From: Brevinematales bacterium | Lineage (GTDB): Bacteria; Spirochaetota; Brevinematia; Brevinematales; Thermospiraceae | Assembly (NCBI GenBank): GCA_026417555.1 | Contig: JAOADA010000003.1 | Span: 62,001-126,000 of the forward strand | Length of the DNA: 64,000 nt | Direction of reading: 5' to 3' | Shown here: one piece after another, positions 51,187 through 64,000 of the stretch | Layout: each line of letters starts with the position of its first letter | Position numbering within the stretch: the first letter of the stretch is position 1 | Translations under genes and position numbers: made by a program | The notes under the pieces: generated by a model | Databases searched by the model: none | The model's input: only the letters and a program-made list of their open reading frames with translations | What the model was told of the DNA's origin: nothing

Positions 51187-51813
51187 CTACACATACTTCC
51201 TATATTCTGCATTGTCTGGGAAGTAACGTACCGCCACACAACGGTTCCCCCGTTGGTTGTAGAGAAACCCCCCATTCCAGTACTCAAGGGCTGCAAAAAG
51301 GGCATTTCCTCCATCCATCTCGGTAGACTCTGGCCCCTTCCAGGCCACAAGATCAGCAAAATGCTCAAAATCCTGACTCACTAGACAGATCGTCCTATCA
51401 ATAGCAAATTGGTTCCATTCATTCATCAAAGAAAAACCACTCCCTTCATCTTCTACTATCACCTTAGCCCGTTTGTTAAAATCAAACCAAACCTTGATTT
51501 TCTTGTTAGGATCCATTTTATTGCCATGTTCAATACCATTTTTGACAAGCTCACTGATCTGTTGCTCGAGAAGGTTCACTTCTTTGTAGAGATCCGGAGC
51601 ATACTGAATAATATACGACGTATATGCGCGCACCTTGGAGAAATCACTGGGAAATTCTTTATAATACATCCCATGCGTATTGAAAAGGGCATGGTTATCA
51701 TCTACTCTCGCGAGTTGCTTCACCTGAATCTCTCTCCCATCCTCAAGCTTCAAAAGAAGAGTATTCTCATTTTTACGACCAACAATCTCATACTTGTAGA
51801 GACTCTCTCGCAT
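51187..51813 (-). CDS. GHKL ATPase-domain protein, anti-sigma/RsbW-like
   Basis: A 208-residue protein with a beta-rich N-terminal part and a C-terminal HATPase fold: the N box ELVKNGIEHGN about residues 107-117 and DEGSGF as the G1 box. There is no histidine-kinase dimerisation domain and no membrane segment, so a stress-response regulator of the RsbW kind or a similar switch kinase is more likely than a sensor kinase. It starts at 51813 behind GGGGAGGA. A consensus promoter and a terminator frame it as a single-gene transcript. Confidence 0.75.
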   Translation of the reverse strand: MRESLYKYEIVGRKNENTLLLKLEDGREIQVKQLARVDDNHALFNTHGMYYKEFPSDFSKVRAYTSYIIQYAPDLYKEVNLLEQQISELVKNGIEHGNKMDPNKKIKVWFDFNKRAKVIVEDEGSGFSLMNEWNQFAIDRTICLVSQDFEHFADLVAWKGPESTEMDGGNALFAALEYWNGGFLYNQRGNRCVAVRYFPDNAEYRKYV

Positions 51814-51875
51814 CTGATATCCTCCCCATCGAACGTCGCTTATACTATCGGCAAACAAACCGCACTATCTTAAAT

Positions 51876-59623: not shown

Positions 59624-62101
59624 CTATGCCCTATACACAATCAGCATGGTTTTGTCATCGGTGGCGGGTGCCTCTCCACAGAAGGTAGAGAGTTCCCTTA
59701 TGATGCCATCTCGCATTCCTTCTACATTTGGAGAAGCATACCGAACAATCGCCTCATAGAAACGCGTCTCACCAAACTCCTCACTTTTCTGATTCTTTGC
59801 CTCAGTTATCCCATCGGTATAAAGGATCAAAAACTCCCCTTGCCGCAAGGATACCTTGTAGAGCTGCATCTCTGGATCAAAAATGGAAGACTCCACCATT
59901 CCTACTGGCATTCCTCCCCCTTTAAGGAGGCGGATCTTTTTTTCTTCTGGGAGGTAGAGAATCCCCTGTTGATGCCCTGCACTCGTGTAATACAGCTCAT
60001 GGTTCTTGGTATCCAAAACCCCATAGAAAACCGTAGCAAACATCGTGGGTAACGTATCACGATAAAGAATGGGATTCACCTCTTTGAGTACCCTGGCAGC
60101 ATCCAGTTTTCCTACTGCATAGGTACGAAGAGTAGACCTCAGCATAGCCATGACCATGCCGGCCCCTACTCCATGCCCAGTAACATCGGCTACCACCACA
60201 CCAAGCCGACTTTCCCCTACCTCCACAAAGTCATAATAATCTCCTCCCGACTCAGTCTGTGGTTGATAATACACACTGAAAAGATACCCCAAAACCCGTG
60301 GATATTCCCTAGGAAGGATAGCACTCTGAATCTCCTTGGCTGATTCAAGCTCCGCTTCCATGCGGCTTTTTTCCTTCACCTCCTGAAACATCTTGGCAAT
60401 CCGAAGGCTCATCGCATTGAAACGGTCGGCTAGATCACCAATCTCATCCGAGGAGTGCACCTCGACCTGCTTTCCCCACTTTCCTGAGGCAATCTCCTCT
60501 GTCCCTTCCGCAAGCTTCGCCAACGACTGAAGCAAAAACCTCACAAAGATCCAGGCAAGCAAAAGCACCCTGAGAAGCAAAAAGAGAGCCAAATCCACCG
60601 ACCGACGCTCTATCTCCTTTTGTTGCTTTGCAAAATCGTCAATAGAAAGAAGAATTGCCACCGTCCCTGTCCGGTAAGGGGCATAGAGATGGCGAAAAAG
60701 GTTATGTACCGTCTCGCTATCAAAATCCCGACTCTGTGTCCAATACGCACTCAGCATAAGCCAAGATTCTGCGGCTTTTTTGATACTATTGACAAAATAC
60801 GTCTTCTCAAAAACAGCTGTATACCCCTCCTGGGTAAAACGCAGAGGAGAAACCCTCCCCATTTCCACACGATTCGAGGCATAGCCTGCCAGAAGTTCAT
60901 CAAAAGCCTCTGTGGTTTTCCAGTTTTTCTTGTCCTGTGAGGGAGAAAACTCCAGATATCTTCTCAAATACCGTTCTATACTCTCCAAAAAAACGAGTGT
61001 CTGCTTCTCCTCCTCTCCCAGGAGGTTGGTATGGGCAAAGATTCGCTTCTTCCGATAAAGAGTCTGAAGGTGTTTCACTTCTTTCTCAGACATTCCTGTC
61101 ACCTGAAACCATTTTACGAGGTTGGCCATCTGATTGGAAGAAAGCGTAATTTCCTGCCCTCGCTTATACTGATCAAAACGTGCCTTCAGGGTATACACCC
61201 CTCTCACCAAAGATGATGTCATCACTCCCTTGGATTTGAGGCGTTCTCCAGCGGCGGTAAGATCCCCAGAGGAGGTAAAGTATCGCCTATACGTCTCATC
61301 AAACATCCTAATATAGACAAAATTTCTCCGTACCTCCGAAGGAAGAGATCTCTTCCGAAACAATTTCCCTGCCTCAAGGTCTGAGATATACTTTTGCCAC
61401 TCTTGGCCAACCTTACTCTCTATAAAAGCCTTGTCATACAAAGGAATAAAAGCCTCATAGGATCGCTGAAGCCTCACAAAATACAAACGGGGGAGATACC
61501 CATCATAAATAACTCCTCGATTGGTCTCGCTAATCTTTTCCCCGATCGCTGAGGGTATCGTATGAAACACCACATATCCATTCGGATCCACAAAAAAAGC
61601 CATGGTAAAAGAGGGAATATTGGTCAAGGTATAGAGATACTCTTGAATAGACTGATACTGCCTCTGAATAAGAATCTGCTGTTGCTTCTGTTGTTGAAGC
61701 TTCTGCTGACGGGTTTGCTCTTTCATGGCAGATTTCAGTACAGCAATCTGCTTCTGAAGTTGCTTTTGTTTCTGTTGGGTGCCAAAAATATTCTCCAGAA
61801 AGCGATTCAAAACGTTTTCCTCGTTCTCTGGTGTCGTAGAAGAGAGAAAAGGGGTCTCAGGAGAAGAGACTACCACTTCTCCCCACTTATCTCGTCCATA
61901 CTCTTCCACATTCCTCCGAAATGCCTCAAGATACACACGAAGATTTTTTGCGATGAGATCTTCCTGGGCCTTTTTCTGTTGAAGCGTGCTATACCGCAAA
62001 AAAGGAAAAGCAAAAACAAGAAAGACACCTGCTACAAAAAATACCACCTTCACTTGAAGACTCACCCGCGGCCAAACAAATGCTTTTTGTCTTCTTCTCA
62101 T
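59624..62101 (-). CDS. Membrane-bound SpoIIE/RsbU-type serine phosphatase
   Basis: An 825-residue protein. A membrane segment (VKVVFFVAGVFLVFAFPFL) near the N-terminus is followed by a very Gln/Lys-rich coiled coil (about 100-145), a large probably periplasmic domain, and a second membrane segment about 510-530 (LALFLLLRVLLLAWIFVRFLL). A HAMP domain and a PP2C-type phosphatase domain from about 590 (SGGDYYDFVEVG, VVADVTGHGVGAGMVMAM) follow. Such proteins dephosphorylate anti-anti-sigma or similar regulators in response to signals. It is the last gene of a signalling operon with a cyclic-nucleotide-binding protein, a potassium channel and a PilZ protein. Confidence 0.9.
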   Translation of the reverse strand: MRRRQKAFVWPRVSLQVKVVFFVAGVFLVFAFPFLRYSTLQQKKAQEDLIAKNLRVYLEAFRRNVEEYGRDKWGEVVVSSPETPFLSSTTPENEENVLNRFLENIFGTQQKQKQLQKQIAVLKSAMKEQTRQQKLQQQKQQQILIQRQYQSIQEYLYTLTNIPSFTMAFFVDPNGYVVFHTIPSAIGEKISETNRGVIYDGYLPRLYFVRLQRSYEAFIPLYDKAFIESKVGQEWQKYISDLEAGKLFRKRSLPSEVRRNFVYIRMFDETYRRYFTSSGDLTAAGERLKSKGVMTSSLVRGVYTLKARFDQYKRGQEITLSSNQMANLVKWFQVTGMSEKEVKHLQTLYRKKRIFAHTNLLGEEEKQTLVFLESIERYLRRYLEFSPSQDKKNWKTTEAFDELLAGYASNRVEMGRVSPLRFTQEGYTAVFEKTYFVNSIKKAAESWLMLSAYWTQSRDFDSETVHNLFRHLYAPYRTGTVAILLSIDDFAKQQKEIERRSVDLALFLLLRVLLLAWIFVRFLLQSLAKLAEGTEEIASGKWGKQVEVHSSDEIGDLADRFNAMSLRIAKMFQEVKEKSRMEAELESAKEIQSAILPREYPRVLGYLFSVYYQPQTESGGDYYDFVEVGESRLGVVVADVTGHGVGAGMVMAMLRSTLRTYAVGKLDAARVLKEVNPILYRDTLPTMFATVFYGVLDTKNHELYYTSAGHQQGILYLPEEKKIRLLKGGGMPVGMVESSIFDPEMQLYKVSLRQGEFLILYTDGITEAKNQKSEEFGETRFYEAIVRYASPNVEGMRDGIIRELSTFCGEAPATDDKTMLIVYRA

Positions 62102-62150
62102 ACTCTTTTATCTTACCCTTTTTGTCCTAAAAAAGCAAATCCTTTCCCTC

Positions 62151-62669
62151 TCATTTTCGCTTGCTCACCACAATAGAAAGCGCTGTTGTCAGTTTCAAGA
62201 TATTCTGATTGAGAGTACGGATACGTTCACACAACACCCCCGCAATGGCCCGCAAAAGCTTATACCCGAGGGTATGGTTCTCATCACAAAGACGATAAAA
62301 GTCCTTCTGAAATACCTCATAAAGATCCACATCGGTCATAGCCTTGACGGTAGCAGAACGGGGAGCTCCCGTCAAAAGTGACATCTCCCCAAAAAAAGGC
62401 ATCTTCGTCTCATCATAGGTCGCAATTGATTTTTCTGCCTCGAGCCACTCCTCCCCTGCTCGTCGCAACGTGATCTGGCTCGTCACCTGTACCACCCCCT
62501 TTCTAAACAAAAAAAGCGACGTCCCTTCTTCCCCTTCACTCACAATCACCTCTCCCTTCTTATATCGCCTCTCATGGAGAAGAGAAGCCACCACAACCCT
62601 TTCTTGTTCCGTGAGTTCCGAAAACAAAGAAAGGGTAGACAAAAATTCTTCCCGTTCTCTTCCCTTCAT
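62151..62669 (-). CDS. Cyclic-nucleotide-binding domain protein
   Basis: A 172-residue protein made of one cNMP-binding domain: KGEVIVSEGEEGTSLFLFRKG, then the phosphate-binding cassette FFGEMSLLTGAPRSATVKAM about residues 91-110 with the key Glu and Arg, and a C-terminal helix. There is no DNA-binding domain or enzymatic domain, so it must act on a partner. It lies nine bases after the potassium channel gene and 49 bases before the phosphatase gene, which makes either a plausible partner. GGGGGG precedes the ATG. Confidence 0.88.
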   Translation of the reverse strand: MKGREREEFLSTLSLFSELTEQERVVVASLLHERRYKKGEVIVSEGEEGTSLFLFRKGVVQVTSQITLRRAGEEWLEAEKSIATYDETKMPFFGEMSLLTGAPRSATVKAMTDVDLYEVFQKDFYRLCDENHTLGYKLLRAIAGVLCERIRTLNQNILKLTTALSIVVSKRK

Positions 62670-62678
62670 AGCCCCCCC

Positions 62679-63845
62679 TTACCGTATAACAAACGCATAG
62701 GCATCATCTCGAGAGATCACATAATCATCCGGCGGATTGATTTTGACATGATACTTTACCCCCTCCTCTCCTACTTCATCAGCAAGTTTTGAACGAATAA
62801 ATTCATCAATCGCATCATTTCCAGAAAGCATGTCCTCAATACTCAGCTCCTTTTCCGTACGATACAGCCCTACAACCATGAGCTTCTCCCTCTCTCGAAG
62901 AGCAAGAAAATACTCTCGAAAGCTCTTCCCCACAAAACGAGAATCAACAGGAATAATCAAAAGACGAGGATTCTCATAGCTCGCCACAAGATCCTGAAAA
63001 AAAAGGGGCATAGCAGGAGAAACCATGGACGCTGAGAGAAGCGCCGGACTGAATATCCCATTGAATACCACATGCTCTACCCCCGCCCTTTTCAAAGCAC
63101 TTGCTTTTTCTATCTTGATTGCCTCTGCACTCACCGCAAGATCTGGATTCAAAGCCTTCAGGCTCAGGGTCGCCATAATCGTCCGCTCATCCGCATCATC
63201 CAGGGATCTATGATGAAAGTTGTCCGCCAGAATAAAGGCATGCGTGGCATTCTCCACATGAGCACGTTTCAAGACACTCTCCTTGGTATAGTCACCAAAC
63301 ACAAACTTCATCACAAAGTGCGGAAATTTGTTCTTCACCTCAAGAAACTCATCCTCCGTCATGTCATTGACTAAAACGACACACAAATGCCGCTGTTGGG
63401 TGAACTCCGGCAAAACCGAAAGAAGCTTCTCCAAATAGCTATTCACCCCAAGAATAAGGATATGATTCTTCACCCTCACCACTGATAACCCTCTCCTTTC
63501 TTTGAGTTTCTTATCTATCAAAAAGGACACAATCTGTCCACTTAAGATAGCATAAAATGCCACACCAAACACTATCACCACCACTCCTATCACACGCCCT
63601 CCTACAGTCTTCGGAACAATATCTCCATATCCAACCGTAGGAATAGTCACAATAAGCCACCACAAGGCATCCCCCAGCGTGCGAAAGAGGGTATTTCCTC
63701 CTCTCCATTCCACCCACCATACCAACGGTACAAGCCCCATCAAACACAGGAAAAGACCAAACACCAATCTATTGCTTGGTTCTGAAAACCAGGCAACAAA
63801 TCTTTTCCAGAGAAATATCTCTTTTCGTGGCTTTTGTTCTTTCAT
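62679..63845 (-). CDS. Potassium channel with RCK (TrkA-N) domain
   Basis: A 388-residue two-segment channel: first segment about residues 29-46, pore helix and the selectivity filter TVGYGD at residues 70-75, second segment about 85-108, then an RCK/TrkA-N domain from about 127 (HILILGVNSYLEKLLSVL, with VNDMTEDEF) and a second regulatory lobe to the end. It resembles MthK/Kch-type gated potassium channels; the Rossmann motif is not the usual GxGxxG, so the ligand is uncertain. Its start overlaps the stop of the upstream PilZ-like gene (ATGA). Confidence 0.92.
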   Translation of the reverse strand: MKEQKPRKEIFLWKRFVAWFSEPSNRLVFGLFLCLMGLVPLVWWVEWRGGNTLFRTLGDALWWLIVTIPTVGYGDIVPKTVGGRVIGVVVIVFGVAFYAILSGQIVSFLIDKKLKERRGLSVVRVKNHILILGVNSYLEKLLSVLPEFTQQRHLCVVLVNDMTEDEFLEVKNKFPHFVMKFVFGDYTKESVLKRAHVENATHAFILADNFHHRSLDDADERTIMATLSLKALNPDLAVSAEAIKIEKASALKRAGVEHVVFNGIFSPALLSASMVSPAMPLFFQDLVASYENPRLLIIPVDSRFVGKSFREYFLALREREKLMVVGLYRTEKELSIEDMLSGNDAIDEFIRSKLADEVGEEGVKYHVKINPPDDYVISRDDAYAFVIR

Positions 63846-64000
63846 TCACCCTTCTCACTCTCTTTGATAATCTTGGAGAGTATCTGCCGTCCTTCTTCTT
63901 CCAATCCAAGAAACTCCATGGCCATAGTCACCCCTGCATTTTCGCCAGGGATATAATTTGTCCGAATCACCCTTGCCCTTACGTCAAGCTCTCCGTCCTT
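63842..64000 (-). CDS. PilZ-domain protein (C-terminal part, 5' end outside window)
   Basis: The last 52 residues of a protein whose beginning lies beyond the window. The visible part, ELDVRARVIRTNYIP then VTMAMEFLGLEEEGRQILSKII, matches the end of PilZ domains, where the pattern is V-x-x-R-V-x-x ... G-V-x-F-x-x-L-x-x-x-x-x-x-I. PilZ domains bind c-di-GMP, but the RxxxR and DxSxxG binding motifs lie outside the window, so binding cannot be checked. Its stop overlaps the channel start, so it is in the same operon. Confidence 0.6.
   Translation of the reverse strand, partial: KDGELDVRARVIRTNYIPGENAGVTMAMEFLGLEEEGRQILSKIIKESEKGE

Follow-up and report, generated by a model that had tools for sequence, protein, structure and literature searches.

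We propose that two adjacent genes of a Brevinematales bacterium encode the parts of a split potassium channel controlled by a cyclic nucleotide. A membrane channel with its own RCK gating ring and a separate cyclic-nucleotide-binding (CNB) protein would form one complex, in which the CNB protein is docked on the ring by an insert in the channel and a tail of its own. We regard this reading as likely, and the formation of a complex between both proteins as highly probable. A potassium channel of this kind, encoded in pieces, had been suggested by a first-pass annotation, and the suggestion is now strongly supported by pairing of the genes across phyla, by matching extra segments and, indirectly, by structure prediction.

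Genes of the locus

The window, a stretch of 64,000 nucleotides (positions 62,001 to 126,000 of its contig), comes from a genome of 2.04 Mb. At the locus in question, which extends beyond the window, the minus strand encodes in 5′ to 3′ order a WD40 and a PilZ protein, followed by an RCK potassium channel, the CNB protein and a HAMP/SpoIIE phosphatase; the parts of this locus given below all lie on that strand. The channel (62679..63845, 388 aa) comprises two transmembrane helices, a pore with the selectivity filter TVGYGD (residues 70–75, 63621..63638), an RCK N-lobe and a modified RCK C-lobe. Pfam matches were obtained to Ion_trans_2 (2e-14) and, above its cut-off, to TrkA_N (2e-12). With a score of 18.3 the TrkA_C match stayed below the cut-off of 27; such a weak match is to be expected given an insert region of 44 residues in this lobe (residues 327–370, 62736..62867), the proposed dock, which is supported by loop comparison and by AF2 models with and without the CNB protein and contains a predicted helix at residues 345–354. 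In the CNB protein (62151..62669, 172 aa), the proposed receptor subunit, cNMP_binding (6e-18) is the sole Pfam domain, and a Pfam search of the channel protein revealed no CNB domain within its chain. This agrees with the earlier description of a channel lacking such a domain, followed by a CNB protein lacking an output domain. The pore motif and the cNMP cassette named there are likewise present, the latter as FGE...PRSA with Glu95 and Arg104 around FGEMSLLTGAPRSAT (62346..62396). The CNB chain closes with the tail NQNILKLTTALSIVVSKRK (residues 154–172, 62154..62210), in which a predicted helix of 40 residues ends.

The sensor-HAMP-SpoIIE phosphatase (59624..62101, 825 aa; Pfam SpoIIE 2e-47 and HAMP) follows 49 bases after the CNB gene, which itself begins 9 bases after the channel gene. 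Both spacings had been given correctly by the first-pass annotation; the third, given as −3, is actually a 4-base overlap (ATGA) of the PilZ gene and the channel gene. Only the 3′ end of the PilZ gene lies in the window (63842..64000), its start being outside; the complete gene at locus L004 (7843-9072) corresponds to window positions 63842 to about 65071, and its product matches PilZ (5e-8) and DUF1577. Since the genes are so tightly spaced, one common transcript is likely. In a consensus scan promoter-like sites were no commoner than in shuffled sequence. Elsewhere in the window (51187-51858), a 223-aa ORF resembles, as judged by eye, an anti-sigma kinase of the RsbW ATPase type; such a protein could act as a partner of SpoIIE phosphatases.

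Conservation of the pair and of its extra segments

The channel alignment was searched against 393 genomes of the phylum, and 100 loci were chosen by channel score alone. A CNB gene was found directly downstream on the same strand in 100 of 100 loci, including three counted loci in which it is cut at the contig end or masked. The number of spirochaete genomes with the pair is thus about a hundred. Most of them contain between 1 and 10 CNB matches, so that repeated chance adjacency is out of the question. At least 15 further pairs were found beyond the spirochaetes, at least 13 of them in named loci and two among weaker channel matches (L124, L132). They belong to Fidelibacterota/Marinimicrobia, Calditrichota, Kryptoniota, Cloacimonadota, Deferribacterota, Myxococcota and Thermodesulfobacteriota, together with a Nitratiruptor MAG (at least about eight phyla, as a lower bound on the spread). 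The CNB gene comes after the channel gene in 115 of 115 pairs, with overlap or a distance of up to 30 bases in 107 of 113. Flanking genes differ clade by clade (histidine kinases, thiolase, adenylosuccinate lyase, peptidase S49, TPR and others), and comparison of the paired loci revealed no third neighbour kept across clades.

The channels of these pairs differ from their unpaired relatives in a loop that connects two strands of the RCK C-lobe and was measured in one alignment of 115 paired and 54 unpaired channels. Paired channels exhibit 43–49 residues at this loop; its length is at least 35 residues in 114 of the 115 CNB-adjacent channels (median 46), the sole exception, L247, being a truncated ORF. 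In unpaired channels the loop is shorter than 25 residues in 51 of 54 cases (median 11), with 26 residues in one; an example of the short loop, from the MthK-like relatives, is LGIYRDGKLLTNP. Two RCK channels of 567–585 aa from the SAR324 cluster (L147, L154), which have no adjacent CNB gene, contain a different extra segment of about 250 residues at the same C-lobe loop. Three channel copies that lie in tandem and have no CNB gene of their own are likewise devoid of the insert.

A counterpart is found in the CNB partners, where the C-helix is followed by a tail of the form KLTTALSIALS or DVITLFxALVxE. This tail is absent from 11 of 12 inspected stand-alone CNB loci that are not adjacent to a channel. 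The one that carries it (L059) comes from a genome (G065) whose channel ortholog runs off the contig end, and it is therefore probably the same channel–CNB locus, split by assembly.

Two types of insert, type A with ...AIDxFIKxKF... and type B with ...EAQKTPDISKLVxNLxxVK... (DAQK in place of EAQK in six pairs), track the two types of tail, with no mismatch in 110 readable pairs; one genome (G048) holds one pair of either type, and in both of them insert and tail agree. On the channel tree the switch between types took place once, so that the agreement counts once, and it was discarded as strong covariation for this reason. A mean-field coupling analysis of 108 joined pairs (about 80 effective sequences) yielded noise, its top matches being gappy terminal columns.

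Predicted contact, proposed gating and alternative readings

In the window, channel and CNB gene are in frame across the TAA stop and three codons. As the same holds for 27 other pairs, the paired alignment could be folded with AF2 as a read-through in which stops are read as Gly and a 4-residue linker holds the two parts close. With this short linker the model reached a mean pLDDT of 91.5 and a pTM of 0.68, compared to a mean pLDDT of 87.3 for the channel alone with nearly the same channel rows (alignments of 88 and 83 rows with channel sequence, thus slightly unequal). Upon omission of the CNB protein, channel residues 331–370 dropped by 22, 16, 19 and 12 pLDDT points by block, whereas the remaining channel blocks dropped by 3.4 points on average and by 11 at most. 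Because the confidence of the insert falls in this way, the CNB protein is predicted to order the insert, and a contact of the two proteins is predicted with it. The evidence is indirect, consisting of pLDDT per block and pTM. Modelling both proteins together, as had been recommended earlier, gave higher confidence for the insert; as this pTM does not fix the orientation of the two parts, the change in insert confidence was used alone. In the read-through model the CNB C-terminus, including the tail, forms one 40-residue helix. The best solved fold relatives of the channel are MthK, the top structural match, and Slo1; in profile searches Slo1/BK came first, with MthK among the best.

Across 113 CNB partners the pocket Glu is conserved in 95% and the Arg in 96%, and the genome of the window contains five class III cyclase domains. 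From this conservation and the presence of cyclases, a cyclic nucleotide appears plausible as ligand. One small clade (L213-L216; family f22, genus g26) has kept the pair while its CNB protein has lost both residues (FGKAALLGEDFHGSS), possibly a ligand-independent version.

A movement of the C-helix upon ligand binding is established for CNBD channels, PKA and Epac. A related mechanism may be drawn for the pair. The 2TM MthK-like channel, which has an RCK ring of its own and is presumably tetrameric, would bind the CNB protein as a separate soluble subunit at the RCK C-lobe, via the channel insert and the tail on the extended C-helix. When cAMP or cGMP binds, it would move the C-helix and, since the extended helix bears the tail that goes with the insert, would act directly on the C-lobe, shift the gating ring and thereby open or close the pore. 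We infer both the identity of the ligand and the stoichiometry. Ligand-dependent gating as such seems probable to us, and opening on ligand binding is somewhat favoured over closing.

A different role of the CNB protein would be that of an obligate structural or assembly subunit, with the cyclic nucleotide mattering little to gating and the RCK ring sensing a ligand of its own as in MthK. The RCK lobes are indeed complete enough to gate, and the clade without pocket Glu and Arg keeps the pair. We nevertheless consider this reading unlikely in view of the retention of both residues in 95–96% of the partners across phyla and the cyclases in the genome. The first-pass annotation had gone further than the split channel and joined the channel to the PP2C phosphatase and the putative c-di-GMP receptor. 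One signalling circuit of all four genes, in which c-di-GMP and cNMP are connected with ion flux and partner switching, would fit their tight spacing on one strand and an order that is held in three species of the genus. The comparison of neighbour order across 80 relatives does not bear it out: the SpoIIE gene follows the CNB gene only in these three species and is gone from the cluster already in the next genera, while the PilZ gene stands ahead of the channel in two genera only, the window's own and the next one (g2), and is gone in the third. In one relative (G007) the PilZ gene lies on a different contig from the channel, in another (G004) it is present without any channel ortholog. Conservation of gene order in relatives, which had been set beforehand as the condition for the proposal, was thus found for the pair and not for the four-gene set. 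With unrelated neighbours elsewhere and a genome that contains at least 12 matches to the SpoIIE domain, the four-gene circuit is very improbable. Still less credit can be given to a CNB protein that works for the SpoIIE phosphatase, or for a different partner nearby, with the channel as a bystander; the phosphatase gene is close by in this genus, but it stands behind the CNB gene in one genus only, against the invariant position of the latter behind the channel, and CNB tail and channel insert co-occur. For the split channel this means that the phosphatase is probably outside the unit, and that in this lineage the PilZ and SpoIIE genes are likely neighbours transcribed along with the pair, their products lying outside the channel complex.

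The PilZ gene product itself is, by its sequence hallmarks (R110xxxR, D326xSxxG, and DUF1577, a GAF-like insertion, together with PilZ), a YcgR-GAZ protein and belongs to a known family of c-di-GMP receptors, in accordance with the first assignment. RxxxR, the GAF-like insertion and DxSxxG are common to the described family (PMC11800159), for which two genes were reported in Thermospira aquatica; two matches were found in genome G001. That paper does not mention potassium or cyclic nucleotide-binding proteins, and the adjacency to a channel seen here is confined to two genera. In one relative (G006, L221 5185-7870) the YcgR-GAZ gene is interrupted by a 342-aa ORF on the opposite strand, probably an inserted mobile element.

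Relation to known channels and variants

Similar to MthK and other 2TM RCK channels, the channel of the window combines a 2TM pore with TVGYGD filter and both RCK lobes in one chain. MthK is complete in one gene, and unpaired MthK-like relatives with a loop of about 11 residues have no CNB partner, in contrast to the paired channels with about 46. In KtrB-KtrA the gating of a membrane channel is done by a cytosolic protein that binds the ligand and has a gene of its own. The separate part is an RCK ring binding ADP/ATP in this system and in TrkH-TrkA, whereas here the RCK ring is in the channel chain and the separate part is the CNB protein; the general arrangement of TrkH-TrkA (PMC6987127) is the one proposed here. 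SthK, MloK1 and other CNBD channels also tie a cNMP receptor domain to a K+ channel, and the CNBD of SthK is a relative of the CNB protein (PMC4308110, PMC6093708). In these channels, however, the CNBD is part of the pore chain, behind a C-linker in SthK, while in the pair the pore is followed by RCK and the CNB domain, unlike in SthK, CNG and HCN channels, is a separate ORF beyond the stop codon. With its single long predicted helix at the C-terminus, the CNB protein also lacks the helix-turn-helix of Crp/Fnr proteins. NCBIfam models matched the channel and the CNB protein with scores far below the cut-offs. In a literature search covering few subscription papers or bioRxiv preprints, no two-gene cNMP/RCK channel and no separate CNB subunit for an RCK channel was found. 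The widespread pairing and the matching extra segments suggest an undescribed channel with its sensor as a separate part.

Variants of the channel were also observed. In 18 paired orthologs of one clade (family f22; L250, L252-L255, L257, L258, L261-L265, L269, L270, L272, L273, L276, L278) TVGYGD is replaced by a conserved, one residue shorter AAYFD, AGYFD or AGYYD, and the CNB gene is kept; ion selectivity may be changed or conduction lost. In addition, a second channel-like gene occurs in tandem upstream of the paired channel (L270 5192-6292, L273 5226-6359, L276 5200-6297; also G214:C63 and G289:C70). At the three L loci it lacks the canonical filter and the RCK insert, which suggests a heteromeric channel.

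Tentatively, the pair may represent a new class of ligand-gated channels in at least about nine bacterial phyla, in which an RCK ring carries the cyclic-nucleotide receptor as a separate subunit; the same complex, having AGYFD/AAYFD for TVGYGD and thus no K+ filter in one spirochaete family, would there conduct another ion or act as a non-conducting sensor. Cyclic-nucleotide gating is already known from channels whose receptor is fused to the pore, as is the gating of RCK channels by ions or nucleotides. If the proposal is true, a conserved pair in which the RCK channel receives a CNB protein in trans would unite both gating machineries and offer a modular model for the evolutionary addition of ligand control to channels. 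For the spirochaetes, it would point to membrane potential or K+ as an output of cAMP.
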